DNA from: Acytostelium subglobosum LB1
Lineage: Eukaryota; Evosea; Eumycetozoa; Acytosteliales; Acytosteliaceae
DNA length: 64,000 nucleotides
NCBI RefSeq assembly: GCF_000787575.1
Contig: NW_012236514.1
Location: 496,001-560,000 of the forward strand
Direction of reading: 5' to 3'
Positions 11,001 to 64,000 of the stretch are shown here, piece by piece. The notes under the pieces were generated by a model, which saw only the letters and a program-made list of their open reading frames with translations, ran no database searches and had not been told where the DNA came from. The position numbers and the translations under genes were made by a program. The first letter of the stretch is position 1. Each line of letters opens with the position of its first letter.

Positions 11001-14000
11001 TCGAGTCAAGATCTCCTTGAACACAGAGTCAGAGGAGTGACGCTCATCAACCAGCTGCACTTGCTTCACAGTCATCTCCATGCGAACTATGCCATTGCGG
11101 AACATGTAATAGTTCAGATTGACCTGGCCAATCTCTAGCGAGGCGATGGGGTCGAGCATCGCGTCCAAATGGCTGATGGCCATCGACAGGTGTCCAATAT
11201 CGCAGAACATGGTCATTTGTCTCGAGTCATCCTTGGCAAGATCGATGAAGCCAACTGGCGAGGAGAACTGATTCTCGGAAGTGTGCATCTGATCGTCATA
11301 CTCGGGCGCTACGTACACCAGCTTGTGGCCAACCATGCGGGGCACGGGCGGTGCAATGGGCGGGCGCCTGTTTTGGTCGGTGGAAAATCTCATCCAATCG
11401 CTGGTGAACACAAAGTTGAGGAAGCGGTAGTCCTCCTCGCAGAGAATGAGCTCGAGAGCTGGGATGCGCACCAACATTCGCTGGTCCTCAATCACTCGGT
11501 TGTCAATTGTATACAGTCGCTCAATGTCAACAGTGCAGGTGGCGTGATTGGAAATGGTCACACGATTGCCTTCTCGTATTGTGAACAGGTCCAAACTGGC
11601 GATGTCTAGGTGAAGAACCTCCACGTTGTGAAGCTGCTGTTGCTGTGCGTCCTGACCGGCCAGCACAAAGCGGTAGAAGTTTGTGAGTGTGGTTGTGCCA
11701 AAGCTCATGGTGACGGCGTCGTGGCTGGTGTCAGTCGCAGGGATTAGCAGAGTCCAAGGCTCCATGTTGACGATCTGCTTCATGCGTGAAGGGCGTCCGC
11801 GCACTGGGGCGTGGGGCGGGGCGACGATGGGGGTGGAGAGGGGCTCCATGACAAAGTCCTTGACGCGCATGATGCTTCCAATCATCGAGACTACGTCGAT
11901 GGAGGACAGGTCGACTGAGTACTCGGCGTCCCAGTCAGAGCCCTCAGGCTGGCACAGTGGAGCATATGATATGTACTTGAAGGAGAAGAACTGCTTGCTC
12001 TTTGTAACCTTGGACAGAACCTCATTGTACAGACTGTTGAAGCCGCTGCCACATAGAATAGCGAGGTCCTTGGCGGTGCCACTCACTACCATCTTCTGTT
12101 GTGACATGTCGGCGCCAATGATCATACGCTTCAACATGAGCTCAGATGAGGGGTGGTGCTGGCTGTGCATTGTCATCTTGAGCATCTGGATGCTGCACTG
12201 AACATTCATCTCAATATGCGCGGGTAGTGTGTTGCGTCTATGCTCAGCATCAGACTCGGACAACACGATGGGCGCGCCATAAGGTCCATGCACATACTCA
12301 TAGTATCGCTTGAGTGTGGCGTTGATCACATTGTACATGAACAAGTATTCTTGACACGTGAAGTTGAAATGGATGTTGCCAAAGTCCAACACTGTGCACA
12401 GTGCGACGGGGATGGTACCTGCTGATTGTTGTTGAACTGGGTCTTGAATCACCGTTGTCGCCTTGGTAGCCTTGTTGGTGATGTCTAGATTGAGGTCGGC
12501 GAGGATCTTTGAGCTGATGAGTAGTTGTCCTGCGTCTTGGATGTGAGTGACCAGTGAGAACTTGTTGATCCTCATCGATGTCTGATCGGTGATGTAGTGC
12601 TGCTTGTCCAAGTATGCATTGGAGATGATCAACTCCTCGATGTCGGCATGCATGCAGTCCTCCTGCTCAATGTTCAGGGGCAGGATAATCTTGGCCGCTT
12701 GCAGAGTGACATCGAACTTGAGCTTGGACGATGAAGCTGGTACTACGGCCAGAGCTGCCTCATCTTCAATCTTGAAGCATGACTGGATGTCTGTGAACAG
12801 GCTGAACAATGGAGTGATGGTAAGGCCATGCAGATTGAGCTCGAGATGTTGCGTCCACAATGTGTCTGCGCTGTAAAGGTCTGGCTTGAAGGTGAAGTGG
12901 ATGGGCGATGATGTCTCGACAATCTTTTTGAACTTGGACTGTACCATCTCGCGTCGATTGTCTGTGAGTCTGAATGACTTCAACTGGCCAGTGATGGAGG
13001 TGGTTGATCCATCTGGTCGCGGAACCCGGAACACACGTTGGGTTGCTTCTATGTTCTTGATCGCCATCGTGGCCAGACCGTGCTTGCCATCGGTCAGTAC
13101 AACAGTGAATGAGTCTTGATGAAGGGTGACAATTGATGACATGGCGTCAAAGTGTCCCTTCTTCGTCTCGACCTTGCGCGGTGGGGGCGCAACAACATCG
13201 GTAGTGGCAACAGACCTCTGATAGCTGGTGTAGATGCGGTTGAGGAATGCACAGTTCTCCTTGGACAGCCTGAGATTGAGTGCTGGCAGTGTGATGTCCG
13301 TGGTGGATGTTGGCGGGATGGTGGAGGTGTCTGATGAGGACAATACGAGTTCCTCCATCGAACGCAGGAAGTCGTCGTAGTCTCTGATTGTGTCGGATCG
13401 CACAAGCATATGGAGGCCGTCCAATAACTTCAGGGAGGTGTCGCCACGACTCAAAACACAGGAGAGTGATGAGATGTTGTACGTCCATTGCTCGAGATCT
13501 ACTGGGATGTCGGCGAATGATTGTCTGACAGAGTTGTTGCTCAGCTCTAGCAAGGGGATGGTGATCTTGACTTGATCACGGTCCTGGTCCATATGTGACG
13601 GGTCGAACAACGTGATGGTCTTGTTCTTGATCTTGGTGGACATTCGCATGCGAGGTGCTGGGCGAACCTCGAGGGTTGGTCGCTGAGCCAATGGGTTGTT
13701 ATTGTAGGTGTCCACAATGACGCGCTTGACTCGCATCAAATGATCAAATGGCATTGATGATATACTGGCTCCATTGATGATGCACTCGAGCTCGCTGTCC
13801 CAACCATCATCCGAACGTTTGTTGTGTGTCTTGTAGGTGAATGAAAGGATGTTGGGAATGTCCATGATTGGCACGCGTGCGGGAGATGCTGTAGCGTTCA
13901 GAGTGTCATCCAAGCGCAGGCTTGATATTGTCGATACAACATTCAATCCCTTCTCAAACAGGATTGCCGTGTCTACCTTTAGGTCATTGAGTGTGAGAGT

Positions 14001-17000
14001 TGTGTGCACTTGGTCTGAGCCCAGCGGACACAGATCAAAGATGACAGATTGTTGCTGCAAGTCGATGAACATGTCTGTTGAGGCGATCTTGTGGTTTGGA
14101 CGCAAGAACACTGATTGGGTGGCGTGATCCAGTTGGTACTGACACTCAATCGAGTGATTCAGACAGCGATAGAATGCGTCAAACTGGCGCTCATCAACCT
14201 TGAGTCGCAATGTGTTGGTGTGGAGTGCGTATGAGTTCGAAGCATTCGATGTGATCTCTCCATAGTTGATCAGGGGTTTGGACTCCATGATGATGTTGAT
14301 GTCATAGTTTGTTGCACATACGATCTCTGAGTCGTTTGATTGATGCAACAGCAATGTAGTGTCCTGCAGGGTGACCTTCATCGTCTCTGAGTACTCTGAT
14401 TGGCGCATGAGTGCCTCAATGTCGCTCAACTTCTCAAAGTCATTGGTGAGCGATAGAGAGCGTGGTCGTGCCGTCACATACGGCTTGCGATCAGTCACAG
14501 CGTTGTAGTCTTGCAGCATCTGAATGACGGGATGATCAAAGTTCACGATCATCTTCATTCGACCAATGCTGCTACTGTCAGGTTCTCCTTCGATGCGGCC
14601 ATGGGCGTGATCAACAGTGTCGACAGGCTTGTACTTGTCCAGCTTGTAGCCACCGATACCAGATGTGAAGGACACGACTACGTAGTCCCAGACACGCAGT
14701 AGGAATGCGGGGTAGGCCATTGTGTGCAGGTTGTGCATGTTGAAGTTCATCAGTGTGGAGTGCTTTTGGGTATCGCGCGGGAACATTGGCGACTTGGTAT
14801 TGAACGAGAGATATGTGAAGTCGATCATCGAGGTGTCTTGATAGCTGTAGAACATGCGCTCATTGAACGAGGTGTCGTGATTGAACTGATGACGACGATC
14901 ATACACCTCCAACTGCTTGACTGCGCCTGCCACATGCATCTGTTTGAGTCGCGCGACCGTGGGCAGATCGACGTGAATGTCAACGTTGTGGAGGTTGACA
15001 TCGGCGAATGGGTCGCGTGAGGCGCCCTGTCCATGTAGCTGCAGAAGTAGTTGGTCAATGTGAAGATTGACCCGCATTCCATTGATGTCCAGGATTTTTT
15101 GTGACGTTGATTGTGCAGCCAAGGACAGGAGATGGTCGAGCAGGTAAGGGTTGGCGCGTCGCAGTTTGAGCTTTGGCATGTCGTCCATCGAGCGGAAGTG
15201 TTGTGCGGCAATGTCACAAACGAATCCAAAGTCGTGCTCGTTGACGTCCAGACACAGTGGCGATATGCGTACATCTACAACCGTTGGTTGTTGATCACTG
15301 TTGAGCACTTCAACAGTGTTGATGTATGTTTGATCGAGTGACTGCAGGTCTATGTCGATGGAGAATGGCTGAGTGGTGAGCATTAGGTCAACGGCGTGGT
15401 CAGCACGACGCGCCATCACCTTGGCTCCCTCAATGTGAACGAGCATCGACTCGACGGGGACAGGTGTTTCGCCAAAGTGCCACTCCAGGTATCGATTGGT
15501 GAGTCGCATCTTGTCCATTGGGACGGCCAATGAGTTCGGCGAGTGAGGTGACACGGGCAGCACGAACATTGGATTGTGGAGCGTAACATCTAGGTTCATG
15601 CGGGACAGCACAAACGAAGAGACGTCGGCAAGGGTGGGCAAGGCTTCCCATATCCTCAGGTATCATAGCCACGAATGGCAGCAGGAAGAAGTCCTTCAAC
15701 GCCAAGATGAATCCAGCGGAGGCGGTGATCGATGATGGTGCGATGTCCAGGGTAACTACAAGGACTGGGGCAGGGTCCTGCTGTTGTTGCTCCTTCATGC
15801 TAAAGGTCACATGGGGAGCGTCCTTGGGAGCGATTTCGCTGCTGGGCAGGGGCGAGAACACGCTGGAGAACAAAGGGAGATTGCGTTTATCTGGTCGCAA
15901 GTCGCTAAGACTGAAAGATTGAATGCTGCCAGCAAAGTTTGTGGTGTTGTTCTTGCTGTTGAAGCTCTTGAAGTTGAGATGTGACAGCGAGATCTGTGAG
16001 AGGTCAGAGTCGGCCGCCTGCAGTGATAGGGCAAAGCGACGCAGGTCCACATTAACGATTGAGGTGATGGCATCACCATCGACAACCTGTGGCTTCCTCT
16101 TGACGATGGCCGCTGCAGCCACCTTTTGTTTGTTCTGGCGATGTTCTTTGGTCCTCATTGATACCTTGTCGATCACATCTCTGGTGATGTTATTGATGAG
16201 TGCGTGCTCCAAGTCCTCAAACTCCAGACTGATCTCATTGATCTCCACATTGATCATGCGCTGTGTGGGCACCAGGTCCTTGGCCACTGGTCGTTGTGTC
16301 TTTGCCCAACACAACAATGTGTCTACGGTTGCATCGACCGATACGTTATTGAGCACCTGATGGTAACGACCTGCTTTGCAAGTCTTGAGATTCATATCGC
16401 GAAGTTTGGCTGAAATGCTCTCCCACTCGACCTCCTCGTCGCCCTGTGTCGCGCGTCTAAGCGTTGTGTCTACATGTATCGATCCCAGTTCGGCTATGAT
16501 CTTGTCGTCGTCGTCTGTTGACAGTGTGTCCTTGGAAGAAAGAACCAGCTGGGGTGACTCGAGGAACACCTTGAAGTTCGTCTTCTTGGCCTTCATATCC
16601 ATCAACTGATTCTGATGTTGCTGTTGTTGCTGCTGATGATTATTGGCATTGTGGGCTGCATCGTCGCTGCTGTCATCTGTTGTTGCCGGGCTGGCCTCGG
16701 AGGCCGAGGCCAAGGCTGATCCAGAGGCCTCTGCCTGGTTCTGATATCGATACAATGAGGCGTACTTGACATCCTTGAATGGTTGCTGAAGAAGGTACTT
16801 TGTGCGCAGAATGAAGTCCACCAGAACGGTGGCTCGAATGCTGCGAAGGTCCAGCTCGATCTCAGTGTCAAACACGCGCTTTGTCATTGCGCGTCCTGTG
16901 TAGGCGCGATACTTGAACGTAGCCATTGCGACGTCTTGATTGGCCGGCGTCAGGATCTTGAATGATTGACCTTCCACCATGCCGGGGGGCAGGTCTACAA

Positions 17001-48435: not shown

Positions 48436-51281
48436 TCAATAGTTGTGAGAGAAGATCACTCTGGCATGGATGATCGATGCCAACTCCTTGCTGAACTCTT
48501 GTAAGATAATGGTTGAATGTAAGAAGTCCAATTGTTGTTTGGATAATCCCTCCATCGTCGATGGTAAGGCAGGCGGCTCCTTAACTTGATTATCATCTTG
48601 TTCATGTGTATACAAGTTGGCCAAGTGTGATCTATATGTCTCAATGGACTGATCGAATAATTGAATATCCTTTGATCTCTCATTTATCTGATTGGATAAC
48701 TATGTTTGATGGGATGGTTGGTAAGTTGTGACGGATGGACAACAGTAGTAGTACTTACATCTTGAAGAACAGAGTGTAGTGATGGTATTGGAGAGTTACT
48801 TGAATGATTGGAAGTTGGTGTTGTAGAGAGCATTTGTTGTTGGCCGGATGTGGACACATGTACCAGGTGTGGATAGAGTTGTGGACATGGATAGTAGCAT
48901 AGTTTGGATATTATACCAGTGAGGACAGAGGTGATCTCAACTGGTAGGCTCAGAACATTGCGTAGCAACTTGAATATCTCTTCGAGGAATGGTCCCATGT
49001 TGTAATTGCTTAGTCCTTGTCTGTTATGACTTATGTGTAGACTCTCGAATGAAGAGGTTGGGGGTATGCCACGACCACTACTACGTTTGCCGCTGCTGTT
49101 TAGCCTTCCACTGCCACCATTGTTGTGAAGTAGCTGGTAGGCTTCCTTTGTGATGAACAGGTAGTTGTCTGGCCATGGAGCACATGCTGTACTGTAGAAT
49201 GATACTTGATAACGTGCGTCCACCAAGTATGATGCATATCCTTGTGATTGATTCATCTGATCGTTCTCACCTGGTGATGACGTTGATGTTGATGCTGTTG
49301 ATGCAGTCTGCGATGATGATTGAGTGTCTGCCAATGTAGAGCTGCTGCTGTTGTTGCCAAATCCAACAAACAATGATAGATAATGTTTGATTGATTGATG
49401 TGCAGCTTGTAGTGTGGCCAGGTTATGGTAGGAGAATGGTGTAGGGTCGATAGGTAGGTTTACAATGATCATATTATACAACACAACAAAGTTGTTCAAT
49501 GACAAAAGTGTCGAGAATAGTCGGAGACAGGACAGAGAGACCTAGAGTTTTGATGGCTGTGAGTGAGTGCTTGACCAAGACATGGACAAGGACAGGGATA
49601 CGTACTATTGGGTTTGGATGTGATATTCGATTGATTAGAGCTGTCCTGATTTGTAACTCATCGGTATCGTCATCTTTCTTGACTTGATGATGTTGTGCCT
49701 CTGGACGAATTGAGCTGCCAACTATGAATGATATTGTCCTGTGATAGACTGGACCATGTAGAAGTGGCAATATCTCTCTAAGATACAACATTGCCGTGGC
49801 AGCATGTAATTCATCATTGTCCAACAATGCTTGTTTGAGTGTAATGGCAATGAATTGCTCATCCCATAACCTTGATATATTCTCTCCAATGTCCTGTTGT
49901 GTTGGAATGATTCCATGTTAATTGTTTGAGTGATTAAGCTGAATGAATGAACATACATGATGTTTGATCGATGACAGTGAGCAACAGAATGATACACGAG
50001 CCTTGTAACACTCGAGGATACAGAGGGTGTCTTGGTCGATTGGTGGAAGGTCTGCGCCACATTGATCAGCTGATGACACTAGTTTGGATGGAAGGTAGCT
50101 GTATACCTTGGCCAGCTGTTTGATCTGTGTCACAACGAATTGAACACGATTTAGCAGTGCATTTGGATCAAACTCGACGATCTCTGGCTGGTCCTCCATC
50201 GATAGTTCAAGTGCCGATCGCTTCAGAGGTGATTGTGGCGGCGACCTGCTCGCTGAGCTGTCTCGACGTGATCGTTGCTCGCCTGCCTGTGATAGTGAGT
50301 TGTTGGTCGATGGCAACAGCTCCAAACATTGTAGTAGGGCCTTTCGTGCTCGCTCGCCGACCGAGCCCACAGTCCACAGATGTCTGGAGAGGCCGCGGTA
50401 GACGATGAACCTCTCGCCATGCATTCCACGCTCATCCTGGAAGAATCCCACCAGGCTTGGATTGAGCTTCAACTTCTTTGTGAGTGTCTCCAGCAAGTTG
50501 ACAAACTCACTCTCATCATTGGCTTGATCGCACACATGTGGATTGAGACTAGGTACCAGATGTTGAATCTCATGTGCCGAGCTATGTAGACTATGTTGTT
50601 GTTGCTGTTGTTGTTCATCATCATACTCGCATTGCTCGTGATCGTGATCGTGATCGTGACTATGATCATCATGATGAGTATCTTTGTCATCATCTTCGTC
50701 GTCACTGAGGTCTTGATCCTGTGCTTGATTAACAATCGAACTAATCAATCTACATATAGGTCTGTGAATGCTCATATGAGGTAACAATGGCATAGATACA
50801 TCACTTAACAGTATTGTAGTTGTTTGTAATACAAGTTTGCGTACTCCTGATGGTGTCTATGTTTGATTGATTGAATGAGTGAGCCGTGTGATTGATCGTG
50901 TGATTGATTGATTGATTGATGTCGACCTTACATCACGTTCACCAAGTAGACATAGTGTCTCGAGTATTCTATTCTTTAGGAAGAAGTCAAAGCATGGACC
51001 AGGTCGTCCAGTTGTTGGTGGCTGTGCCTTGCTCTCCTCTACAATCAATGAAACCATCGATATAATATGACCTGGTAATTGAAATTCATGAAAGCTCTCA
51101 AGGTCATCTTGATTGAGTATAAGTATTCATTCAATCATTTCATTCAATCAATCATGTATGTTAACATACCATTATTGTCATTGTAGAATGTCTTTATAGC
51201 ACGCCAATGATTCTTTAGTTCATCTAGTTGAGTATTTGATGGTGCCAATGCCTCACCAATTGTAGAGAGTAGTCTCTGCAT
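48436..51281 (-). CDS. FHIP / FAM160-family protein (FTS-Hook-interacting protein)
   Basis: Six exons: 51170-51281, 50932-51071, 49957-50856, 49606-49893, 48759-49541, 48436-48699 (828 aa), all junctions in frame. Family landmarks: PCFDFFLKNRILETLCLLGE, MPLLPHMSIHRPICRLI (matching the FHIP motif PLLPH.NVHRPVQKLI), ETLTKKLKLNPSLVGFF, AATAMLYLREILPLL, and LRLFSTLLSL reconstructed across the fourth intron. Low-complexity inserts include a His/Asp run and poly-Gln near 50,600-50,700 and a Ser/Thr stretch near 49,270-49,350. In animals and fungi FHIPs join FTS and Hook to link early endosomes to dynein-dynactin. Orientation and spacing suggest possible co-regulation with nudC just downstream. Confidence 0.88.
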
Positions 51282-51501: not shown

Positions 51502-52290
51502 ATGGATATCAACAACAACAATAATACTACTGATGATGATGGATTGAATGATGAGGTTGTTTCAACAAAGTGCCAAACTCATAACAGGAGGTCAGAGATG
51601 ATTTGCTTCGATTGTAGACTGTTGTTTGGTGGCCAAAGGTCATAAAGGTCATAACATCGATCAGATTGATAATATCAAACAGAGAATGATAGAGAAGGAT
51701 ATGGAGGGATTATGGTGTATGCCTAGGTTGGAGCATCTGTGGAAGACACTTCAACTGTGTGCTCAATCATATCAATCATTGCAACAGACACATTCAGAAG
51801 TCACTTCAACCTTTGAACAACTGATCAAGTTGATCATCGCTCAAGAGCACAAGACCAAGACACCGATCAATGCTCAAATGTCACATATACAATCGTTATT
51901 GAAAAAGGCGGATCTGGCTTCTCGCTCAATCTCAAGACATTGGACACCGACGTGCTCCTCGATGCCGACTTAAAGTATAATTATAATTATACCAGTTGCT
52001 TCGATGGCCATGACAACCTCTATTTGCTCGGCTATGATCGTAAGGGAAGTGAAGTCTCATTCTTTCGATACACACTGTCCACTAAAGAGAAAACCAAGCT
52101 CCAGGGTCATCCAAAAGATCTTTGTAACCAATATCGATTGGTGTATCATCCACTTGGCATCATGTCTGTTGGTGGCAACAAAAGGAATTATTCATACTCG
52201 ACCGATGATGACAAATGGACCTTGATCACAGATGACAATGACCAGGTAACAGACCGCTCATTTTATGATGCATGCTTGATTCTTGATTGA
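51502..52290 (+). pseudogene. B-box/kelch array copy 1, internally deleted
   Basis: This is the first member of the tandem array. It opens with a normal start (Asn/Asp-rich) and the first B-box zinc ligands (CQTHNRRSEMICFDC). The next ligand pair is deleted and the frame is lost within CFDCRLLFG, resuming as HKGHNIDQIDN. The helical region is present to QMSHIQS, after which a second deletion joins directly to the last propeller blades (SCFDGHDNLYLLGYD ... YDACLILD). Both deletions are clear by comparison with the intact copies. Two separate frames remain open, but no full-length protein is possible. AATAAA follows at 52,328-52,333. Confidence 0.8.
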
Positions 52291-52338
52291 TTGTCACATC
52301 ACTACATAAGTCAGTACAAGTGGTGTCAATAAACAACT

Positions 52339-52933
52339 TCCATTTACGATGGTGATAAGTACATCTACATCGTTGGTGGATTTGATCGGCAAGCATCACC
52401 ACCAACCTCGACTGATCAAGTTGTCCGCTTCGACATCAGCACGGAACAGTTTGAACAAATTGGATTCCTACCATACTCGTTGGACACGGTCTGCATCTGT
52501 GTCCACGACAACTCAATCATTATTGCCGGTCACAAGAAAGGTGTGCTCTCATTCAATCTCAAGACACTGACTACTGATCTTCTCTTTGATCAATCATCAA
52601 TCAACAAGGGATGTGGAAGAAGTACGGAGTATGCCAGTTGCTTCGTTGGTCAAGACAACCTTTACTTGATGTTCTTTGAAGATATGTTAGATGATGATGA
52701 TACATTCGTTCGATTCACACTGTCCACCAACAAAGAAGTTGACTCCATGTCCCAATAGATATGGAGAGTACTACCGCATCATATTTGATCAATCATTTGG
52801 CATCATGTTACTTGGTGGCAAAGATAATAACTATCGATACTCCATACAACTTGATCAATGGACACTTATCACTGATGAAAATGACCCTGTCAAAGACCGT
52901 ATATTGTATGGTGCATGTCTAATTCGTGATTAA
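52339..52933 (+). pseudogene. B-box/kelch array copy 2, 5'-truncated propeller fragment
   Basis: Only the C-terminal propeller survives. It begins abruptly at SIYDGDKYIYIVGG, six bases after the poly(A) signal of copy 1, with no B-box or helical region. A frame change occurs after TLSTNKEVDSMS (about 52,745), and the last blade continues in another frame as FDQSFGIMLLGGKDNNYRYS to YGACLIRD. AATAAA follows at the stop. It looks like the product of unequal recombination between neighbouring copies. Confidence 0.8.
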
Positions 52934-53067
52934 TAAATTTGGCAATAAGAAGACTGAAGTGATCACCATTTCTCGCGCCAAAATTGAGAAGTGACTTCAA
53001 ATAACACTTTGAATTCAAACAACATTACAAAGTAGTTTCTTAACAGATAGATAGGTAGAAGTAATAG

Positions 53068-54651
53068 ATGGATACAGAGACTAATCTTGTTGAGTCTTCT
53101 TTGTCGACTAGGTGCCAAACGCACAATAGGAGGTCAGAGATTATATGCTTCGATTGCAGAGTGATGTTGTGTCCTGTTTGTTCGGCAAAAGATCATAAAG
53201 GACATAACACCGATCAGATCGATAATATTAGAGAGAGAATCAACGAGAAGGATATGGATGGATTATGGTGCACTCCGAGGTTGGATCATCTGTGGAAGAC
53301 ACTTCAACTGTGCACCACATCATTTCAATCATTGCAACAGACACATTCAGAGGTCACTTCAACCTTTGAACAACTCTTCAAGATGCTCATCGCTCAGGAG
53401 CACAAGATCAAGACACCAATCAACGTTCAAATGTCACACGTTCAATCAACAATCAACAACATCATCAATGAGATCAAAGACATCAATCATATCATCAACA
53501 ACAAACAACCAACAGACAACAACAATAATGAGGTTGATGATTCAACACAATTGATTGAATCGATCACACAATGCACAACGATCGATGAGTTCATCAACAA
53601 GATCAACAACAACAACACTCAATCAGAAGATGTCAATATCAATGATGGTGAACTGATGTCAATGATCGTTCGTCATGTCCTACATGTTGAACAGGTGCCC
53701 TATGATGGTGTGGCTTCACTTCGATTACAAGCATGTCGGTTAAAGATTGATCTTGATCTGAAGGATGTCAAGGAGAAGCTCAATGATTGGTTCACAATCC
53801 TCGAACCTGGACGAGCAGGATCTTGGGCGGGAAACATCCTGTCACTTGGTTTCGGATCAAACGCATTGTTCTCACTAGAGACATCGGTGTGGAGAACCAT
53901 CGACTTCTCCGCTAGATCTTACAGTTGTGTGACAAACTCTGTAGTATATGCCCATGGAAATATTTACGTGTTTGGAGGCTATGAAGAGCCACAGTACTCT
54001 CGATACTCAATATTTGAGGAACAAGAACACACTGCCCCAATGACTGGCCTGCAGGCCAGTATAAATTTGTCAGCATGCTACAATGGAGACAAGTACATCT
54101 ACCTGTTCGGTGGAGATGATGAAACGGGCTACAAAGGAAATCAAGTGGATCGATTCAACATCTTCACTCATCAGTTTGAGAGTGTTGGAACTCTTCCTTT
54201 CCAGCTGTCCAATGCCTGCACACACTTCCACAAACAATCCAACTCGATCATTGTTGTTTGTAAAGATGGAACTGTCCACTCATTCAATCTCAACACATTG
54301 GCCACCGCATTGCTCATGGACCCCCCAGATGAAGAGGAGTATAATATTACCAGTTGCTTCGATGGCCATGACAACCTCTACATGCTAGCCTATGACTGTG
54401 ACGGTAATGGTGATTTCTATCGATACAAACTCTCCACCAAAGAGATAACCATTCTCAGCAGCTATGATAGAAGGCGTCTTCATCAAGAATTCCGAATCAT
54501 ATATCATCAACCGTTTGGCATCATGCTTGTTGGTGGCTACGGCTACACCCTTATATACTCTGTTGATGATGATGAATGGTCTTTGCTCGATACTGACAAC
54601 GACGAGGCAGGAAGCCGTGGAAGCCAAGGAGCATGCTTGGTCCTTGAATGA
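53068..54651 (+). CDS. B-box zinc finger / kelch-like propeller protein, array copy 3
   Basis: An intronless 527-aa protein. B-box: CQTHNRRSEIICFDCRVMLCPVC...DHKGH (about residues 16-46), a complete Cys/His set. A helical region (about 60-150) includes LWCTPRLDHLWKTLQLC and NNIINEIKDINHIIN, then an Asn/Asp linker. The second half is a kelch-like propeller with blades marked VYAHGNIYVFGG, CYNGDKYIYLFGG, SCFDGHDNLYMLAYD and IIYHQPFGIMLVGG, ending GACLVLE. The architecture is TRIM-like without a RING, so ligase activity cannot be assumed. More likely it is a scaffold or adaptor that uses the propeller for binding. Third codon positions are AT-richer than in the neighbouring housekeeping genes. 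Confidence 0.85.
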   Translation: MDTETNLVESSLSTRCQTHNRRSEIICFDCRVMLCPVCSAKDHKGHNTDQIDNIRERINEKDMDGLWCTPRLDHLWKTLQLCTTSFQSLQQTHSEVTSTFEQLFKMLIAQEHKIKTPINVQMSHVQSTINNIINEIKDINHIINNKQPTDNNNNEVDDSTQLIESITQCTTIDEFINKINNNNTQSEDVNINDGELMSMIVRHVLHVEQVPYDGVASLRLQACRLKIDLDLKDVKEKLNDWFTILEPGRAGSWAGNILSLGFGSNALFSLETSVWRTIDFSARSYSCVTNSVVYAHGNIYVFGGYEEPQYSRYSIFEEQEHTAPMTGLQASINLSACYNGDKYIYLFGGDDETGYKGNQVDRFNIFTHQFESVGTLPFQLSNACTHFHKQSNSIIVVCKDGTVHSFNLNTLATALLMDPPDEEEYNITSCFDGHDNLYMLAYDCDGNGDFYRYKLSTKEITILSSYDRRRLHQEFRIIYHQPFGIMLVGGYGYTLIYSVDDDEWSLLDTDNDEAGSRGSQGACLVLE

Positions 54652-54761
54652 TATGATAGTCAGTTATTCGCATGCATCAATAAACCTCGAGATGCCAAAG
54701 TTCAAGATAAATCTTCGCTTCGCTTTTTGATCATTATTTAGTTAACTTACTCGTCATAATA

Positions 54762-56377
54762 ATGGAGATAGATAATATTAATAATACTACAACAACGATA
54801 ACAACAAGATGTCAAGAACACAACAGGAGATCAGAGTTCATATGCTTCGATTGCAACACGCTGGTATGCCCTTTGTGTTTGGGAAGAGGACAGGCTCATT
54901 ATGATCACACGATAGATCATATCGATAACATCAAGAAGCGAATCGTCGAGAAGCATCATAGTGATATGTGGTGTAAACCAAGGTTGAGTCATCTCTGGAA
55001 GATACTTCAGCAGTGTGCAGCTTCATACAAATCATTGCAACAGACACATTCAGAGATAACGGGTCACTTTGAACAACTGATCAAAGTGATCATGGCTCTA
55101 GAGCACAAGATCAAGACACCAATCAATGTCCAAATCTTACACATTCAATCAACAATCAACAACATCATCAATGAGATCAAGGATATCCTTGCAGCAACCA
55201 ACAGACAACCACGACAGTAGTGAGGTTGATGATGTAACACAAGTTGTTGAATCGATCACACAATGCAAATCAATGGTTGAATTCTTCAACGCCATCATCC
55301 AATCTGATATTGTACAACAACAACACAAGGTCGATGATGATGAACTGATGTCAATGATCATTCGTCACAGCCAACACATTAATCAAGTGCCTTATAAGAG
55401 GTCTGATGAGACGATGTTTGAACCAAGTAGCATCGAGACTGATGTCAACAAGTTAAACGGTGTCAGGAAGCAGATCGAGTCTTGTTTCAAACTCATTCAA
55501 CCGGGACGCGCTGGAATATATGACGGCCAAATCATGTCTCTGACTGCCGATCGATGTTCACTGTTCTCACTTGAGACGTCCAGGTGGACACATCTCGAAA
55601 AGGCATTCAAGCGATCATTTAAAAACATAAACACATCGATGGCTTACGCCCGAGGCCATGTCTATGTGTTTGGCGGACCGGAATGGACGAATATGGCACA
55701 ACGTCATACTCTCGATACTCGCTGGAGGATGGTCAATGCCACAGTGCACCAATGCCAGATGTGGATGAGCCAGTGACCGGCATAGCTGCATGCTACGATG
55801 GTCGCAAGTACATCTACCTCATTGGCGGATATTGCAAAGATAACAAGTGACCGATGGTCTGTACCGATGCAATGTCCTCACCCAAGAGTGTGTCGAATTT
55901 GGAGCACTTCCATACCGTATGGCCTTTATCAGAGCCAACTTCATGGCCGACTCCAACTCACTGCTTATCGTTTGTGAAGAGAAAATCACCACATTCAATG
56001 TCGAGACCATGGACTCTGATTATAACTACATACCATCAGAGACTGATCCGGATGCGATCCATTACATTCACTCGAGTTGCTTCGATGGCCAAGATAGCAT
56101 ATACCTGATGACATCTATTGGCGATATCGATGACGATGAAGATATATTCATGCGATACTCATTGTCCACCAGGAAAATAACCAAGCTGGCCAAGAGTCCA
56201 ATCAGCAGTGATTACTCTCGCCTGATCCATGATCAATCGTTTGGAATCATCTATGTTGGTGGCAAAGGCAGGAACTATCGATACTCAATTCCAGATGATA
56301 AATGGACTCTGATCACTGATGATAACGACTCCATCACAAACCGTGCACAGTATGGAGCATGCTTGATTCGTGATTGA
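54762..56377 (+). pseudogene. B-box/kelch array copy 4, frameshifted
   Basis: This copy has the full layout of the family but is split into several frames. The B-box (CQEHNRRSEFICFDCNTLVCPLC...AHYDH) and helical region lie in 54,762-55,220. The linker and first blade (YARGHVYVFGG) continue in a second frame to about 55,776. The middle blade (CYDGRKYIYLIGG) is in a third, and 55,847-56,377 carries the last blades ending YGACLIRD. At least three frame changes are needed (near 55,190, 55,690 and 55,850). No splice-site pairs explain them, and intact copies have no introns here, so it is probably a pseudogene. Sequencing error is the alternative. Confidence 0.75.
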
Positions 56378-56712
56378 TTGTATTGAGTCAACAGACCCAT
56401 AAATAAACAATCATACCAAACGATTCTTCATTCATTCATCAATATATTGAAGCTGATGTCATATGTCCTCCACCATGATGGCGTCAGAGTTGGTCCTCAT
56501 GGTGTGATGCTTATGTTGGCATTGCCAGTGTTATTGACTGAGTTGCCAGCTGTTCGGGTTGTTGGTTGTTGTTGAGTATGGGGATGGTTGGGAGGTCCAT
56601 CATGTCTCTCCGTTCCGTTTGTGGCCATCAAGTCTGTTCTTCTTGTGAACGGGAGAGGATGTTGGTGATTTAGCATTGTCTATTGCTGTTGTTGTTGTTG
56701 TTGTGGTTGTTG
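56378..56712. other. Spacer after array copy 4, TTG-repeat rich
   Basis: Contains AATAAA near 56,400 for copy 4, then GT-rich sequence with TTG/GTT repeats to about 56,740. No supported gene until the minus-strand frames that end at 56,713. Confidence 0.4.
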
Positions 56713-57800
56713 TTATGTTGTTCTGGTTGTTGTTATGTTGTTCTTGCTCTTTGGGGTGTTTGTGTTGGATGGCGCTCTGGCTTGAGTGTCTAGGCCTGGT
56801 GGCGCTATGGGGAGCTCATTCATGGCTGCTATGGCATTCGGCTTGGCCCTCCATGCTGGCTCGAGTGGTGCTGACAGTTGTTGTTGCTGTCGTTCCTTGT
56901 GTAGTACATTCGCGAACTGAAGAAGATCTGACGTGGGCACTTTAGTCCAGTCGGCCGCACTAATGATGTCGAGGGCCCAGGAGCGTTCCTCAAGTTCCCG
57001 TTTGGCTGCCGTGATGGACGTGTCGTTTGAGTTCTTTTGTTGTGTTACACCAATTACTGTTTCTTTTTGTTGAGACCTGTTGTTGGGATGAGTGTCCTCT
57101 TGAGTTGTGTCACCCTTCGATGGCGCATCTAACTTGGACCAACTCCACGGCACTCGATCAACGTCAACAATCCCGTCTGGTCCGGTGGTGGTAGTGGTGG
57201 TGGCTGTGCGGTCATCGTCCTCGTCCTCTTCCTCATCCTCTGCATCTTTGGTTGTCTTTCGCTTGTTCTTCTTTCCCAGATCAAAGTCGGGGTGTGGCCA
57301 CAACACGTTGTCGTCCCTGGCAGCCTTGGTACTATTCGACACACCACCTTTCTTCGTATAAGTCAATAAGCACATTCCTGTCTTCGACACTGGTTGGACA
57401 TCTGAGTTCTACATCAGTGTGGGTGTTTATCTTGGGTACCAATCTCTTGATTGGGCCAACGAGCATCTTCATCGGACGTTGGAGCCCGGTGACTGTAACC
57501 TCTTCCACTCGGAACTCTTTATAGTTGTTGTCAATGTAAGATCCCAACTTATCGCTCATCACTGGCTTCTCCAGATTGCCATCATTGGAATGATCGAGTT
57601 TATCTACAATGTATTTGATGATATTGAACCTGGCGAAAGTCATATAAGAAATTGATTCTAGAAATTGACAACATTGCGATAACCCACGTCTTCTGTGATG
57701 ACATGTTAATGGTAAGGTTGTATAACAAGATAGCGTCGATGATGTTGTTATCATGGTTAGTATTTTGTTGGAGAACAAAAACAGTCCCATAAATACACAA
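56713..57800 (-). CDS. Unidentified minus-strand reading frames inside the B-box/kelch array
   Basis: Two open frames lie on the strand opposite the array: 57,332-57,790 (contains KLGSYIDNNYKEFRVEEV and VGPIKRLVPK) and 56,713-57,390 (acidic stretch DAEDEEEDEDDDR, poly-Thr, then ERSWALDIISAADWTKVP and a Gln-rich end). Both have protein-like composition and are unrelated to the B-box family. They could be a diverged host gene with an unrecognised exon structure or the remains of a mobile element. I recognise no catalytic domain, no terminal repeats and no clear splice pair. The GC content is higher than in the flanking array copies. Function unknown. Confidence 0.35.
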
Positions 57801-57871
57801 TCAAACCTAATCTAAAGTTGTGTTGAGGGTGATCTAATTCGTTCATCCATTCTACCAATTGAATCGCTCTG

Positions 57872-59548
57872 ATGGAGACAGATAATAACAATAATAACAA
57901 CAACAATAGTGTAGTTGCTGCTGCATCGATGACAACGACAATAACAATGACAACAATAACATGTCAAGAACACAACAGGAGATCAGAGTTTATATGTTTC
58001 TATTGCAACGAGTTGGTGTGTCCATTATGTTTGGGTAGAGGATATGCTCATTATGAACATGATGTAGATCATATTGATAACATCAAGAAGAGAATGATCG
58101 AGAAGGATATGGAGGAGTTATGGTGTACTCCGAGGTTGGACCATCTGTGGAAGACTCTTCAAAAGTGTGCAGGTTCATATCAATCATTGCAACAGACACA
58201 TTCAGAGATAACGGGTCACTTTGAACAACTGATCAAGGTGATCATCGCTGAGGAGCACAAGATCAAAACACCAATCAATGCTCAAATGTCACACATTCAA
58301 TCAACAATCAACAACATCATCAATGAGATCAAAGACATCAATCATATCATCAATATCCAATATCCGACGACAACAGATAACAACAACAGTGATAATGATA
58401 TAACACCATTAATTGAATCGATCACACAGTGCAAGACTATTGATGAGTTCACCAACATCATCACTCAATCTGATATTGATACACAACAACAACAACAACA
58501 AAACAAGGTCGATGATGATGATGAACTGTTGTCAATGATCATTCGTCACCGTCAACACATTGATCAGGTGCCCTATAAAGGGACGGATGAGATGATGTTG
58601 CAACCCAGCCGTATAGAGACTAATGTCATCGTGTTGAACGGTGTCAGGAAGCAGATCGAGTCTTGTTTCAAACTCATTCAACATGGAAGCGCTGGCATAT
58701 ATGATGGCCACATCATGTCTCTGACTGGCGATCAATGCTCAGTATTCTCGCTTGATACGTTCAAATGGACATCATTAGACAGGGCATTCAAACGATCATT
58801 CATGATCTCAGCTTTATCAATTGCCTATGCCCGTGGACATATCTATGTGTTTGGCGGACCGGACAAAAAGTCATACTCTCGATACTCTCTGTTCGATGGT
58901 CAATGCCACACTGCACCATTGCCAAGTGAGGATGAGCCATTTAACATCACAACTGCATGCTACGATGGTCAAAAGTACATCTACGTCACCGGTGATTATG
59001 TAACAAGAGAGAACGATGGGGTATACCGTCTCAACGTCTTGACTCAAGAGTGTGACATCTATGGAACACTTCCATGCCATTTGGGGTTTGGCAGAGCCAA
59101 CTTCAAGGCCGACTCCAACTCACTGGTTATCGTTGGTGAAGAGAAAATCATTATGTTCAATGTCGAGACAAAGGAGTCTAATTATTTCTACGTACCATCA
59201 GAGACTGATCCAACTGATGCCCATTACATCTACGAGAGTTGCTTCGATGGTCAAGACGACCTATACCTTTTGGCTGCTGATGGCGAAATCGAAGACGATG
59301 ATGCTGATCGATTCATTCGATTCACATTGTCCACCAAGAAAATAACCAAGTTGGCCATGTGGCCAAAGCACAAAAAATTCCATCGCTTGATCTATGATCA
59401 ATCGTTTGGAATCATCTATATGGGCGGAAGACAAAGCAAGAACTTTCAATACTCTATACCAGATGATCACTGGTCTCTGATCACTGATGGAAATCTCCCT
59501 TTAAAGGGTATTATACAGAATGGAGCATGCTTGATTCGAGATCACTGA
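57872..59548 (+). CDS. B-box zinc finger / kelch-like propeller protein, array copy 5
   Basis: An intronless 558-aa protein beginning METDNNNNNNNN. The B-box is CQEHNRRSEFICFYCNELVCPLC followed by GRGYAHYEH, a spacer variant shared with copies 4 and 6 (Gly-Arg-Gly-x-Ala-His) that differs from the DHKGH type. Helical region, then a linker with poly-Gln and poly-Asp. Propeller blades are marked YARGHIYVFGG, CYDGQKYIYVTG, SCFDGQDDLYLLA and IYDQSFGIIYMGG, ending NGACLIRDH. AATAAA follows about 30 bp after the stop, and the next copy starts about 100 bp downstream. Function unknown; a cytoplasmic or nuclear binding adaptor is the most that can be inferred. Confidence 0.87.
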   Translation: METDNNNNNNNNSVVAAASMTTTITMTTITCQEHNRRSEFICFYCNELVCPLCLGRGYAHYEHDVDHIDNIKKRMIEKDMEELWCTPRLDHLWKTLQKCAGSYQSLQQTHSEITGHFEQLIKVIIAEEHKIKTPINAQMSHIQSTINNIINEIKDINHIINIQYPTTTDNNNSDNDITPLIESITQCKTIDEFTNIITQSDIDTQQQQQQNKVDDDDELLSMIIRHRQHIDQVPYKGTDEMMLQPSRIETNVIVLNGVRKQIESCFKLIQHGSAGIYDGHIMSLTGDQCSVFSLDTFKWTSLDRAFKRSFMISALSIAYARGHIYVFGGPDKKSYSRYSLFDGQCHTAPLPSEDEPFNITTACYDGQKYIYVTGDYVTRENDGVYRLNVLTQECDIYGTLPCHLGFGRANFKADSNSLVIVGEEKIIMFNVETKESNYFYVPSETDPTDAHYIYESCFDGQDDLYLLAADGEIEDDDADRFIRFTLSTKKITKLAMWPKHKKFHRLIYDQSFGIIYMGGRQSKNFQYSIPDDHWSLITDGNLPLKGIIQNGACLIRDH

Positions 59549-59650
59549 TAGTAGTAGGCAATCAAACAAAACCATAAATAAACAACCAAACCTAACCTCT
59601 TGTGTGTGTGTGTTGGGATGAATTCTCTGATTCATTCATTCTTTCAATTA

Positions 59651-61369
59651 ATGACCTGGACAGAGATAGATAATAATACTAGTTATATTGACAGTGCCAA
59701 CAACAGTGTAGTTTCTGATTCGATGGCAACAACAACAACAACATTAACAACAACATGTCAAGAGCACAACAGGAGGTCAGAGTTCATATGTTTCGATTGC
59801 AACATGTTGGTGTGTCCAGTGTGTTTGGGAAGAGGATATGCTCATAATGGACATGAAGTCGATCATATTGATAACATCAAGAAGAGAATGATCGAGAAGG
59901 ACAAGAAGGATATGTGGTGTAAACCGAGGTTGGATCATCTGTGGAAGACACTTCAACTGTGTGCCGGATCATATCAATCATTGCAACAGACTCATGCATC
60001 AATCAGCAGTCACTTTGAACAACTGATCAAAGTGATCATCGCTGAGGAGCACAAGATCAAGACACCAATCAATGTTCAAATGTCACACATTCAATCAACA
60101 ATCAACAACATCATCAATGAGATCAAAGACATCAATCATATCATCAACATACGACTACCAACAAATAACAACGACAACGACAACAGTACTAGTGAAGTTG
60201 ATGATACAACACAATTGATTGAATCGATCACATCATGCAAATCAATCGATGAGTTCACAGACAAGATCACTCAATCTGATATGGACACACAGCAACAACA
60301 ACACAATGTCAATGATGATGAACTGATGTCAATTATCATTCGTCACAACCAACACACTCATCAAGTGCCTTATGATGAGAAGATGTTGCACCCAAGTCGT
60401 ATAGAGATTGATGTCAACTTGTTGACCGGTGTCAGGAAGCAGATCGAGTCGTGTTTCAAACTCATTCAACCTGGACGTGCCGGCAAATATGATGGCCATA
60501 TCATGTCTCTGGCTGGCGATCGATGCTCAATGTTCTCTCTTGATACGTTCAAGTGGACATCATTAGACAGGGCGTTCAAACGATCATTCGTGAGCTCACA
60601 TATATCAATGGTATACGCCCGAGGCCATGTCTATGTGTTTGGCGGATCGGACGAATATGACATAACATCATACTCTCGATACTCTCTGTTCGATGGTCAA
60701 TGCCACACTGCACCATTGCCAAGAGAGGATGAGCCATTTTCCGCCACAACTGCATGCTACGATGGTCAAAAGTACATCTACATCATCTGTGAATATCGAA
60801 CAAAAGATAACGATGGGGTATACCGACTTAACGTCTTGACTCTGGAATGTGACATCTATGGAAAACTTCCATACTCTATGATGATGGCCAGAGCCAACTT
60901 CAAGGCCGACTCCAACTCACTGGTTATCGTTGGTGAAGAGAAGATCCTCTTGTTCAATATCGAGACAAAGGAGTCCAATTATTTCTACATACCATCAGAG
61001 ACTGAACCGGGTGTAGTCCTTTATATCTACGAGAGTTGCTTCGATGGCCACGATAACTTATACATGAAGGCTGCTCTTGGCGAAATCGAAGACGATGATG
61101 CCGATCGATTCGTTCGAATCACATTGTCCACCAAGAAAATAACCAAGTTGGCCATGTGGCCAGAGCACAAAGAATACCATCGCTTGATCTATGATCAATG
61201 GTTTGGAATCATCTTTATTGGTGGAAGAGGCAAGAACTTTCGATACTCAATACCAGATGATCAATGGACTCTGATCACCTATGACAATGTCCCTTTTAAA
61301 GGTATTGCACAGAAAGGAGCATGCTTGATTCGTGATCGAATCGATGAAGTCAATTTAACAGAACCATAA
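59651..61369 (+). CDS. B-box zinc finger / kelch-like propeller protein, array copy 6
   Basis: An intronless 572-aa protein. I choose the ATG at 59,651 (MTWTEIDNN) over an upstream in-frame Met at 59,600 because it aligns with the starts of copies 3-5 (MDTE, MEID, METD) and the intervening residues are simple-sequence. B-box CQEHNRRSEFICFDCNMLVCPVC with GRGYAHNGH spacing. Helical region, Asp/Asn/Gln linker, then blades YARGHVYVFGG, CYDGQKYIYIIC, SCFDGHDNLYMKA and IYDQWFGIIFIGG. The conserved GACLIRD tail is followed by an extra dozen residues (ending NLTEP), unlike the other copies. Closest by eye to copy 5, including long identical stretches in the propeller. Confidence 0.87.
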   Translation: MTWTEIDNNTSYIDSANNSVVSDSMATTTTTLTTTCQEHNRRSEFICFDCNMLVCPVCLGRGYAHNGHEVDHIDNIKKRMIEKDKKDMWCKPRLDHLWKTLQLCAGSYQSLQQTHASISSHFEQLIKVIIAEEHKIKTPINVQMSHIQSTINNIINEIKDINHIINIRLPTNNNDNDNSTSEVDDTTQLIESITSCKSIDEFTDKITQSDMDTQQQQHNVNDDELMSIIIRHNQHTHQVPYDEKMLHPSRIEIDVNLLTGVRKQIESCFKLIQPGRAGKYDGHIMSLAGDRCSMFSLDTFKWTSLDRAFKRSFVSSHISMVYARGHVYVFGGSDEYDITSYSRYSLFDGQCHTAPLPREDEPFSATTACYDGQKYIYIICEYRTKDNDGVYRLNVLTLECDIYGKLPYSMMMARANFKADSNSLVIVGEEKILLFNIETKESNYFYIPSETEPGVVLYIYESCFDGHDNLYMKAALGEIEDDDADRFVRITLSTKKITKLAMWPEHKEYHRLIYDQWFGIIFIGGRGKNFRYSIPDDQWTLITYDNVPFKGIAQKGACLIRDRIDEVNLTEP

Positions 61370-61509
61370 ATAAACTACCAAACCCAACCTTGGTGTGTGT
61401 GTTTGGGATGTCCATCAGAGTCATTCTTTGAGTGACCTTGGCCGATCGAGATAAGATAAATAATAATACTAGCTCCAGTGTCAACAATAACAGTGTAGTT
61501 GCTGCTTCG

Positions 61510-63147
61510 ATGGCAACAACAACAACAACAACGACAACAACATGTCAGGAGCACAACAGGAGGTCAGAGTTGATATGTTTCGATTGCAGCATGTTGTTGT
61601 GTCCTTCTTGTTTGGGTAGAGATCATAAAGGACATAACATTGAACAAATAGATCGTATTAAACAGAGTATTAAAGAGAGGAATAAGGGATTATGGTGTAC
61701 TCCGAGGTTGGACCATCTGTGGAAGACACTTCGTCAATGCACTACTTCGTATCAATCATTGCAACAGACACAATCAGAGATAACAGCACACTTTGAACAA
61801 CTGATCAAGGTGCTCATCGCTCAGGAGTACAAGATCAAGACACCAATCAATGTTCAGATGTCACACGTTCAATCAACAATCAACAACATCATCAATGAGA
61901 TCAAAGATATCAATCTTATCATCAAACGCCAACAACCAACAGATAACAACAACGAAAACAATAGTGATGGCGGTGTCAAAGATGATACAACACAACTAAT
62001 TGAATCGATCACACAATGTACAACAATCGATGAGTTCATCAACAAGATCAACATCAACAACATTCAATCAGATGATGTTAACATCAATGATGATGAACTG
62101 ATGTCAATGATCGTTCGCCACAGCCAACACATTCATCAAGTACCATATGATGAGAGTGATGCTACTACATTACAGCTTAGAGCATGTGAGTATAATATCA
62201 ATGCTGACAAGTTGAAAGACATCAAGAAACAGATTGAATCATGCTTCAAACTCATTAAGCCTGGTCACTATACTCCTGGAGAGTACGAAGGACACATCAT
62301 TTCTTTTGATAACAATCCATTATCATTGTTCTCACTGGAGACTCAGAAGTGGACAACAATCAAACTCGATGGTGAATTCAATACTCAACTCAGTACGGCG
62401 CTCGGTTCGGTAGTCTATGCCCGTGGCAATGTCTATGTGTTTGGCGGTGCCTACGAAGAGGACGATGAAGGAGTTGAAACATGGACAAAGACATACTGTC
62501 GATTCTCCCTGGCCGAGAAACGAATCCACCATAATCCAATGACTGCGATGGAGGGTGCGTTTTTGTTTGCAACCTGCTACGACGGCGGAAAGTACATCTA
62601 CATCGTTGGTGGATGTGATGTGAAAGAAAAGAATCTGGACACCGTATACCGCTTCGACATTGACACAGGACAGTTTGAGGCGTTTGGAAAGATTCCTTTT
62701 GCGACATCTAATGCCTCCGCTCACTTCCACAAGGACAGCAACTCAATCATCATCGTTAGTGAGGACAAACAGGTCTCATCGTTCAGTGTGATCACACAGG
62801 CCACCAATGTTCTCTTTGAATATAGTAACTTTGCGGGCAACTGCAACTGTCAAATTAAAAGCAGTTGCTTCGATGGCCAAGACAACCTCTACCTTCTGTT
62901 CATTTATGACTGCACATTCATTCGATACACAATGTCCACCAAAGAGATCGTCAGTCTCAAAAAATGTCCATATACAATAGGTGTCCTGTTTTCCCTAATC
63001 TATGATGATTCATTTGGCATCATGCTCATTGCTGGACGAGCCCAGAACTATCAATACTCCACACAACATGATCGATGGACATTGCTTAACGATGATGATC
63101 CTAATGATTATCGTTCAGAACTGGGGGCGTGCTTGATACGTGATTGA
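61510..63147 (+). CDS. B-box zinc finger / kelch-like propeller protein, array copy 7 (shortened N-terminus)
   Basis: An intronless protein of 545 aa from the first in-frame ATG at 61,510 (MATTTTTTTTT). The frame is open further upstream to a GTG at 61,432. There the sequence (GTGACCTTGGCC...) aligns with the ATGACCTGGACA start of copy 6, so the ancestral ATG appears to have changed to GTG. The B-box (CQEHNRRSELICFDCSMLLCPSC, DHKGH) remains complete with the downstream start. Helical region and linker with poly-Asn and Asp. The propeller is more diverged than in copies 5 and 6 and has an extra acidic loop (YEEDDEGVETW). It ends GACLIRD. AATAAA follows near 63,172. Confidence 0.85.
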   Translation: MATTTTTTTTTCQEHNRRSELICFDCSMLLCPSCLGRDHKGHNIEQIDRIKQSIKERNKGLWCTPRLDHLWKTLRQCTTSYQSLQQTQSEITAHFEQLIKVLIAQEYKIKTPINVQMSHVQSTINNIINEIKDINLIIKRQQPTDNNNENNSDGGVKDDTTQLIESITQCTTIDEFINKININNIQSDDVNINDDELMSMIVRHSQHIHQVPYDESDATTLQLRACEYNINADKLKDIKKQIESCFKLIKPGHYTPGEYEGHIISFDNNPLSLFSLETQKWTTIKLDGEFNTQLSTALGSVVYARGNVYVFGGAYEEDDEGVETWTKTYCRFSLAEKRIHHNPMTAMEGAFLFATCYDGGKYIYIVGGCDVKEKNLDTVYRFDIDTGQFEAFGKIPFATSNASAHFHKDSNSIIIVSEDKQVSSFSVITQATNVLFEYSNFAGNCNCQIKSSCFDGQDNLYLLFIYDCTFIRYTMSTKEIVSLKKCPYTIGVLFSLIYDDSFGIMLIAGRAQNYQYSTQHDRWTLLNDDDPNDYRSELGACLIRD

Positions 63148-63252
63148 TTGATTGGTCAAATAGTGTGGTGATAATAAACCTTTCCAGCATTGTGTTTCAA
63201 TCATAATCATAAGGGAGAGTTATAATACATACATATATTTATAGACTTACTA

Positions 63253-64000
63253 ATGGATAATAACAATAATGTAGTTGATTCAATGGAAACATCAACAATA
63301 TCGACTACATGTCAAGATCACAACAGGAGGTCAGAGTTCATATGTTTCGATTGCAGCATGTTGGTGTGTCCTGTCTGCATTGGTCGACATCATAAAGGGC
63401 ATAGTGTGGACCAAATAGATAGTATTAAACTGAGTATTGAAGAGAGGAATAAGGATAGGCAAGCGTTATGGTGTACTCCAAGGCTGGATCATCTGTGGAA
63501 GACACTTCAACTGTGTACCAAATCATATCAGTCATTGCAACAGACACATTCAGAGATAACATCACACTTTGAACAACTGATCAAGTTGATCATCGCTCAA
63601 GAGCACAGAGTCAAGACACCAATCAATGTTCAAATGTCACACATTCAATCAACAATCAACAACATCATCAATGAGATCAATCAAATCAACCATATCATCG
63701 ACCTCCAACATCCAACAGACAACAATAATATTAGTGAGGCTGATAATATCAATCAAGATGATTCAACACAATTGATTGAATCGATCACACAATGCACAAC
63801 AATCGATGAGTTCATCAACAAGATCAACAACAACAACAACAATCAATCAGATGATGTCAATATCAATGATGATGAACTGATGTCAATGATCGTTCGTCAC
63901 AATCAACATACTCATCAAGTACCCTTTGATGAGAATGATGCTATTACATTGCGACTCAAAGCATGTGATTACAAGATCAATGACAAAAAGTTGAAAGACA
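63253..64000 (+). CDS. B-box zinc finger / kelch-like propeller protein, array copy 8 (runs off the window)
   Basis: The start ATG at 63,253 (MDNNNNVVDSM) is followed by an open frame to the window end, about 249 codons. B-box CQDHNRRSEFICFDCSMLVCPVC with RHHKGH, of the same type as copies 3 and 7. The helical region (LWCTPRLDHLWKTLQLC, NNIINEINQINHI) and Asp/Asn linker are present. The sequence ends just before the propeller. The array therefore continues to the right of this window. Confidence 0.85.
   Translation, partial: MDNNNNVVDSMETSTISTTCQDHNRRSEFICFDCSMLVCPVCIGRHHKGHSVDQIDSIKLSIEERNKDRQALWCTPRLDHLWKTLQLCTKSYQSLQQTHSEITSHFEQLIKLIIAQEHRVKTPINVQMSHIQSTINNIINEINQINHIIDLQHPTDNNNISEADNINQDDSTQLIESITQCTTIDEFINKINNNNNNQSDDVNINDDELMSMIVRHNQHTHQVPFDENDAITLRLKACDYKINDKKLKD

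Follow-up and report, generated by a model that had tools for sequence, protein, structure and literature searches.

The array and its genes

The window analysed here is a stretch of 64,000 nucleotides from Acytostelium subglobosum LB1 (NCBI RefSeq assembly GCF_000787575.1, contig NW_012236514.1, positions 496,001 to 560,000 of the forward strand). Positions 51502-64000 hold eight head-to-tail units of one gene family on the plus strand, four intact and four broken. Members of the family encode, in order, one B-box, a helical segment, a linker rich in Asp, Asn and Gln (D/N/Q-rich), a six-bladed kelch propeller and a GACLIRD tail. The B-box/helix half (hereafter the N-half) is conserved more strongly than the propeller. 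A preliminary description of the sequence had proposed at least eight head-to-tail copies, with intact and broken ones mixed; the eight same-strand units were verified by open reading frames (ORFs) and tblastn pieces, and are as follows.

51502-52290, plus strand: c1, broken; the B-box has a frame change, and after the helix an internal deletion leads to the last propeller blades (tblastn pieces, two frames)
52333-52934, plus strand: c2, broken; 5′-truncated propeller remnant with a frame change (tblastn pieces)
53068-54651, plus strand: c3, intact, 527 residues; B-box, helix, linker and kelch propeller (ORF and Pfam)
54762-56377, plus strand: c4, broken; full length, with at least three frame changes
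57872-59548, plus strand: c5, intact, 558 residues (ORF and Pfam)
59618-61369, plus strand: c6, intact, 583 residues counted from the first ATG (ORF and Pfam)
61510-63147, plus strand: c7, intact, 545 residues; reference for the structure and the site map (ORF, Pfam and model)
63253-64000, plus strand, continuing past the window edge: c8, broken (ORF open to the edge, TAG beyond it)

Each of the intact copies is one uninterrupted ORF. The copies are separated by 42-140 bp, close to the spacing of about 100 bp given in the preliminary description; the exception is the 1.5 kb between c4 and c5, which contains ORFs on the minus strand. The same description had placed c8 among the copies for rate comparison. 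This copy carries an in-frame TAG at codon 345, past the window edge (locus L009), and is therefore not intact in the assembly. A ninth remnant of the array lies outside the window, at C38:561007-561111 (the window being C38:496001-560000).

Domain architecture

A profile search for B-box and kelch domains, put forward as a check in the preliminary description, found both in the window copies. The Pfam profile zf-B_box scored above its cut-off in c3, c5, c6, c7 and the first piece of c4, while kelch motifs were above the cut-off in c3 and c7 and below it in c5 and c6. The scan was extended to 56 family members, defined as ORF matches with a profile start of at most 25, a profile end of at least 440 and an ORF length of at least 480, after duplicates and other ORFs had been dropped; five are incomplete at a locus edge, and a frame break removes the last strands from two. 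The B-box profile was found in 55 of the 56 and the kelch profile PF24681 in 50 (expectation value, E, 0.01). The parts of the reference copy c7 are listed below.

61543-61635, plus strand: B-box zinc ligands, residues 12-42, C-x2-H-x7-C-x2-C-x4-C-x2-C-x4-H-x2-H (56-member alignment)
61645-61929, plus strand: helical segment, residues 46-140, with the lowest nonsynonymous rate (low-confidence models; rates)
61930-62274, plus strand: D/N/Q-rich linker, residues 141-255, with predicted short helices (sequence and model)
62275-63144, plus strand: six-bladed kelch propeller, residues 256-545 (Pfam, model and Foldseek)
63118-63144, plus strand: GACLIRD tail, predicted strand A closing blade 1 (model strand 540-543; likeness to other A strands)

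Six of the eight zinc ligands are present in 100% of the aligned members, with H15 at 98% and C26 at 93%. The predicted structure of c7, obtained with an alignment of five window sequences, shows six blades (predicted template modelling score 0.51). From residue 261 onwards, the means of ten-residue blocks of model confidence lie between 52 and 92, with residues 286-297 below 50. Residues 1-260 score below 50 throughout, so that the front half can be described only as 'helical', and modelling of the N-half by itself yielded no fold of good confidence. These low-confidence models place a long helix after the B-box, at residues 88-140 or 64-141, and a match to TRIM_CC was weak (E 0.07-0.7). A W-x-x-L sequence in the helix (W71, L74) was considered as an Atg8-binding motif and discounted, as it sits in predicted helix.

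The best Foldseek matches of the c7 propeller model were designed SAKe6 kelch proteins, KLHL3 and KEAP1, the last two with template modelling (TM) scores to target of approximately 0.7-0.8. The model also offers an explanation of the GACLIRD tail. In the model, blade 1 is closed by strand 540-543, the C-terminal strand of the propeller. The tail is also similar to the A strands of blades other than the first.

No RING domain was among the Pfam families listed for the window copies or among the 25 of 27 families listed for the 56 members, and the latter likewise included no BTB, BACK or FNIP. Neither the 56 proteins nor the sequence up to 1.5 kb upstream of them contained a RING pattern. Around the 149 B-box sites of the genome described below, none had a PF13923 RING within 3 kb (52 PF13923 sites compared; other RING models were not searched genome-wide). 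The layout given in the preliminary description, of B-box, helix, linker, kelch propeller and tail without a RING, was confirmed, with the kelch fold supported by the predicted structure and by Foldseek.

The family across the genome

The genome searched comprises 30.7 Mb in 56 contigs. Its dictyostelid character shows in two slime-mould Pfam families, spore coat (PF04562, 10 matches, best 4.8 × 10−26) and cAMP receptor (PF05462, 10 matches, best 9.5 × 10−111). The B-box profile PF00643 matched at least 149 places (150 of 186 candidates scored), and the c7 protein at least 85 (80 of 311 candidates scored). The loci examined in detail cover 80 of the 149 B-box sites. Profile chaining in these loci gave 50 intact units, 21 broken full-length units and 35 fragments, some of the last being edges of overlapping loci. 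Of 43 genes with an array neighbour, 38 had their closest relative in the tree within the same array, and c3, c5, c6 and c7 grouped as a single clade (support 0.995). The arrays have expanded by local birth and death of genes. Likeness between the aligned upstream regions of the copies was patchy only. Among viral contigs and prokaryote genomes, no relative of the family was confirmed by tblastn.

The family has a larger array at C41:365-430 kb (L012-L017), with a minus-strand block at 366-394 kb and a plus-strand block at 420-429 kb. FNIP repeats form a separate large family in this genome, with at least 207 matches (150 of 3777 candidates scored); none of the 149 B-box sites had an FNIP match within 3 kb downstream when 119 of the 207 were compared.

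Unequal rates in the two halves

The preliminary description had judged the B-box/helix half to be more conserved than the propeller, and the sequences agree: across the six pairs of intact window copies, identity was 0.71-0.86 in the N-half and 0.39-0.77 in the propeller. The ratio of nonsynonymous to synonymous substitution rates (dN/dS) was then compared between the halves in gene-disjoint paralogue pairs, which use 32 of the 56 genes, with pairs at a synonymous distance (dS) above 1.2 excluded. The propeller had the higher ratio in 16 of 16 pairs (one-sided sign test, P = 1.5 × 10−5, pairs taken as independent), and bootstrap support was at least 0.95 in eight of the single pairs. For c5 and c6, dN/dS was 0.24 in the N-half and 0.76 in the propeller.

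Rates for classes of site were pooled over nine young pairs, with codons containing N skipped. The proportion of nonsynonymous differences (pN) was lowest in the helix (0.063) and highest in the BC+DA loops of the propeller (0.266), with intermediate values in the AB+CD loops (0.110), the propeller strands (0.138) and the B-box (0.147). In the BC+DA loops the ratio of pN to the proportion of synonymous differences (pS) was 0.80, while the framework strands of blades 2-3 were constrained (pN/pS 0.37). In KEAP1-type propellers, partners are bound at the BC/DA face.

Codon site models

Positive selection was assessed by comparing models M8 and M8a with a purpose-written codon site-model program, the statistic being twice the log-likelihood difference. 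The sets were six copies from C41, seven from the window plus C47, six from C52 and the four from the window by themselves; set B also took in two C52 ORFs whose profile matches were shorter. The propeller gave 12.7 in the C41 set, 14.1 in the window plus C47 set and 10.8 in the C52 set, against 0.0, 0.1 and 0.0, respectively, for the N-half. The C41 linker gave approximately 5.2, and the propeller of the four window copies alone 7.8. Removal of columns within three of a gap left 11.6 for C41, 9.1 for the window plus C47 and 9.2 for the window. The C52 signal vanished on this trimming, and the set was left uncounted for that reason.

Observed values were attained in none of 132 null simulations (0 of 48 and 0 of 84), some of which were run with separate trees for each propeller half, mimicking recombination; one round consisted of 21 replicates for each of four nulls. 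Sites with posterior probability above 0.8 fell in BC/DA loops in seven of eight cases for the window plus C47 (Fisher's test, 0.0017) and in 15 of 31 for C52 (0.018).

For the C41 and window sets, positive selection on part of the propeller, and not on the N-half, is supported by these data, though not proven. The propeller had been predicted to evolve faster and under different selection, which the 16 pairs and the site-model signal in the propeller but not in the N-half bear out. Uniform purifying selection, named beforehand as the result that would speak against the idea, is contradicted by the same two lines of evidence.

Possible gene conversion

Synonymous likeness of the two halves was compared at codons for identical residues in 79 same-contig pairs no more than 60 kb apart. 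Nine pairs gave P < 0.01, the values being uncorrected and the pairs non-independent. The N-half was more alike in eight of the nine, and one C41 pair showed the reverse. In the window, synonymous mismatch between c5 and c7 was 0.15 in the N-half and 0.44 in the propeller, and between c6 and c7 it was 0.15 and 0.41. A synonymous contrast is not accounted for by selection at the protein level, but would be if the 5′ half had been converted or propellers had been exchanged. This suggests gene conversion of the 5′ half in some arrays, that of the window included, a conclusion that is supported but not proven. Such conversion could also produce the asymmetry between the halves, a cause absent from the preliminary description.

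Other features of the window and its surroundings

The 1.5 kb gap between c4 and c5 holds the following.

56713-57790, minus strand: ORFs outside the family, with no Pfam match above cut-off

There are two such ORFs, overlapping, of 220 and 152 residues; the pair could be a single spliced gene or an insertion. To the left of the array, ORFs at 48684-50793 on the minus strand match RAI16-like (7.9 × 10−20) and DUF5917 (3.2 × 10−15), and are perhaps one intron-bearing gene. To the right, an ORF of 579 residues at L009:3469-5208 on the plus strand has a start that is signal-peptide-like as judged by eye. An open frame of 2854 residues occupies positions 7035-15599 of the window, on the minus strand, in a GC-rich part (0.47-0.55).

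Discussion

The window proteins share with TRIM (RBCC) proteins a B-box, a helical segment and a C-terminal interaction domain, and TRIM proteins of the NHL class likewise end in a six-bladed propeller. They differ in the absence of a RING, in the replacement of NHL, SPRY or MATH by kelch, and in a coiled coil that is putative. By the RING criterion the family falls outside the TRIM proteins, yet it may well act in the manner of TRIM-type receptors. With KLHL proteins and KEAP1 the family has the kelch propeller in common, as the Foldseek matches indicate, and differs from them in that BTB and BACK were not among its listed Pfam families. TRIM5, through its SPRY domain, belongs to the diversifying recognition families, with which the putatively propeller-confined selection of the C41 and window sets may be compared; the C52 signal was lost after gap trimming.

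Large dictyostelid B-box families are already published, grouped with FNIP repeats. Table 2 of PMC4334915 gives, for group OG5_126643 ('zinc finger, B-box domain and FNIP repeat'), 241 members in D. discoideum, 381 in A. subglobosum, 206 in P. pallidum and 55 in D. fasciculatum. That group, too, is a large dictyostelid expansion with a B-box in its description. It differs in being published with FNIP, whereas the present family joins its B-box half to a kelch propeller. The sole functional precedent found is AreA (DDB_G0279871) of D. discoideum, a protein with B-box, FNIP and DUF4559. It binds Atg101, autophagic flux rises when it is lost, and the description consulted names no RING (PMC4554924). 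One source credits D. discoideum with a single TRIM, an orthologue of TRIM37, and describes human TRIMs as able to act as autophagy receptors and ULK1 platforms (PMC5758549). A second source gives one TRIM37-like gene for D. discoideum and RING-less TRIM37-like genes for Trichomonas (PMC3503706). No title or abstract start found in the literature search, which left most subscription journals outside its range, named a family that joins B-box to kelch, lacks a RING and has diversifying propellers.

Our interpretation, which we hold tentatively and at somewhat less than even confidence, is that the array represents a local burst of lineage-expanded, cytosolic, RING-less TRIM-like adaptors, in which the effector end is common to all and the propeller, which binds the target, varies. 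The B-box/helix half would assemble the protein and couple it to a common effector; candidates would be a ubiquitin ligase that acts in trans and, with AreA as precedent, the Atg1/Atg101 autophagy complex. Each propeller would bind its own, changing target, most plausibly from intracellular bacteria, viruses or mobile elements. Such a family may have a role in immunity. In its widest form the proposal would be an intracellular receptor repertoire of at least 100 genes, in which a B-box/helix signalling half kept uniform within arrays by conversion is joined to a positively selected kelch face, an immune arsenal built on kelch and not on SPRY, LRR or NLR; this we consider unlikely.

Several results weigh against the interpretation. 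Every rate derives from paralogues of one species. C41 supplies five of the 16 pairs, and in two pairs one copy lacks the last strands; when those two were omitted, propeller dN/dS was higher in 14 of 14. The average propeller dN/dS (omega) is below 1. In the site models, the C52 value falls from 10.8 to 0.06 once gap-near columns are removed, and splitting the C41 propeller in two leaves 4.5 in the second half against 0.6. The nulls were simulated on untrimmed alignments only, and two of them came close to the data (13.16 against 13.30 observed for C41, and 7.71 against 7.78 for the window alone). Selected sites in C41 showed no BC/DA enrichment (16 of 40; Fisher's test, 0.27), and the face asymmetry may be partly generic to propellers, because AB/CD turns are shorter than BC/DA loops. 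The B-box/helix part of the structure models is of low confidence. Finally, AreA has, by its published description (PMC4554924), FNIP and DUF4559 and not kelch.

Some of these points would follow equally from birth-and-death drift, in which the propellers of redundant duplicates are relaxed, the B-box/helix half stays under purifying selection and an arms race is unnecessary. Drift is possible, if on the whole doubtful. It fits the 21 broken full-length copies found beside 50 intact ones in the loci examined, the mean propeller omega, the dependence of the C52 signal on gap-near columns and the two near-miss simulations. However, M8 still outperformed M8a after gap trimming in the C41 set and in both window sets, the untrimmed propeller statistics exceeded all 132 null simulations, and the framework strands of blades 2-3 are still constrained, points that weigh against drift.

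The propellers may instead direct different host proteins to turnover by ubiquitin or autophagy, as subfunctionalised adaptors for endogenous substrates. Expanded F-box or MATH-BTB families may diversify by subfunctionalisation in the same way, and kelch propellers are classic substrate receptors, with KLHL3 and KEAP1 among the Foldseek matches. AreA is itself an endogenous autophagy regulator (PMC4554924). The machinery of this alternative overlaps that of the adaptor interpretation we prefer, and the targets differ. We regard it as rather unlikely, since high gene turnover, the many broken copies and site-wise positive selection would suit external targets better.

The preliminary description had suggested self/non-self or pathogen recognition. 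Recognition stays within our interpretation as a proposal, while its cell-surface version, by analogy with tgrB1/tgrC1 of Dictyostelium, is very improbable. Such a role would accord with the presence, in a social amoeba, of a recognition-like domain that diversifies, and 15 of the 56 members have a hydrophobic 9-residue window within the first 38 residues. That stretch overlaps the B-box, which begins after a median of 17 N-terminal residues, and hydropathy averaged over a 19-residue window rises above 1.9 in only one of the 56. B-box zinc sites are a mark of cytosolic proteins, and a cytosolic location is favoured by these sequence features.

An assembly artefact or dead array, made up of collapsed or false duplicates or wholly of pseudogenes, is scarcely credible: frame changes or stops do occur in several copies, but for the intact ones the idea is contradicted by differences of 14-61% between the intact window copies (scored protein segments), by retention of the zinc ligands and by low N-half dN/dS in the aligned members.

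If the propellers bind foreign molecules, the family would amount to an extensive set of cytosolic recognition proteins among the dictyostelids, whose model species D. discoideum reportedly has a single TRIM (PMC5758549). These tractable, bacteria-eating organisms would then be suited to the study of variable receptors with a common effector. Even if its role is non-immune, the family offers a clear natural case of the two halves of one gene under different selection.

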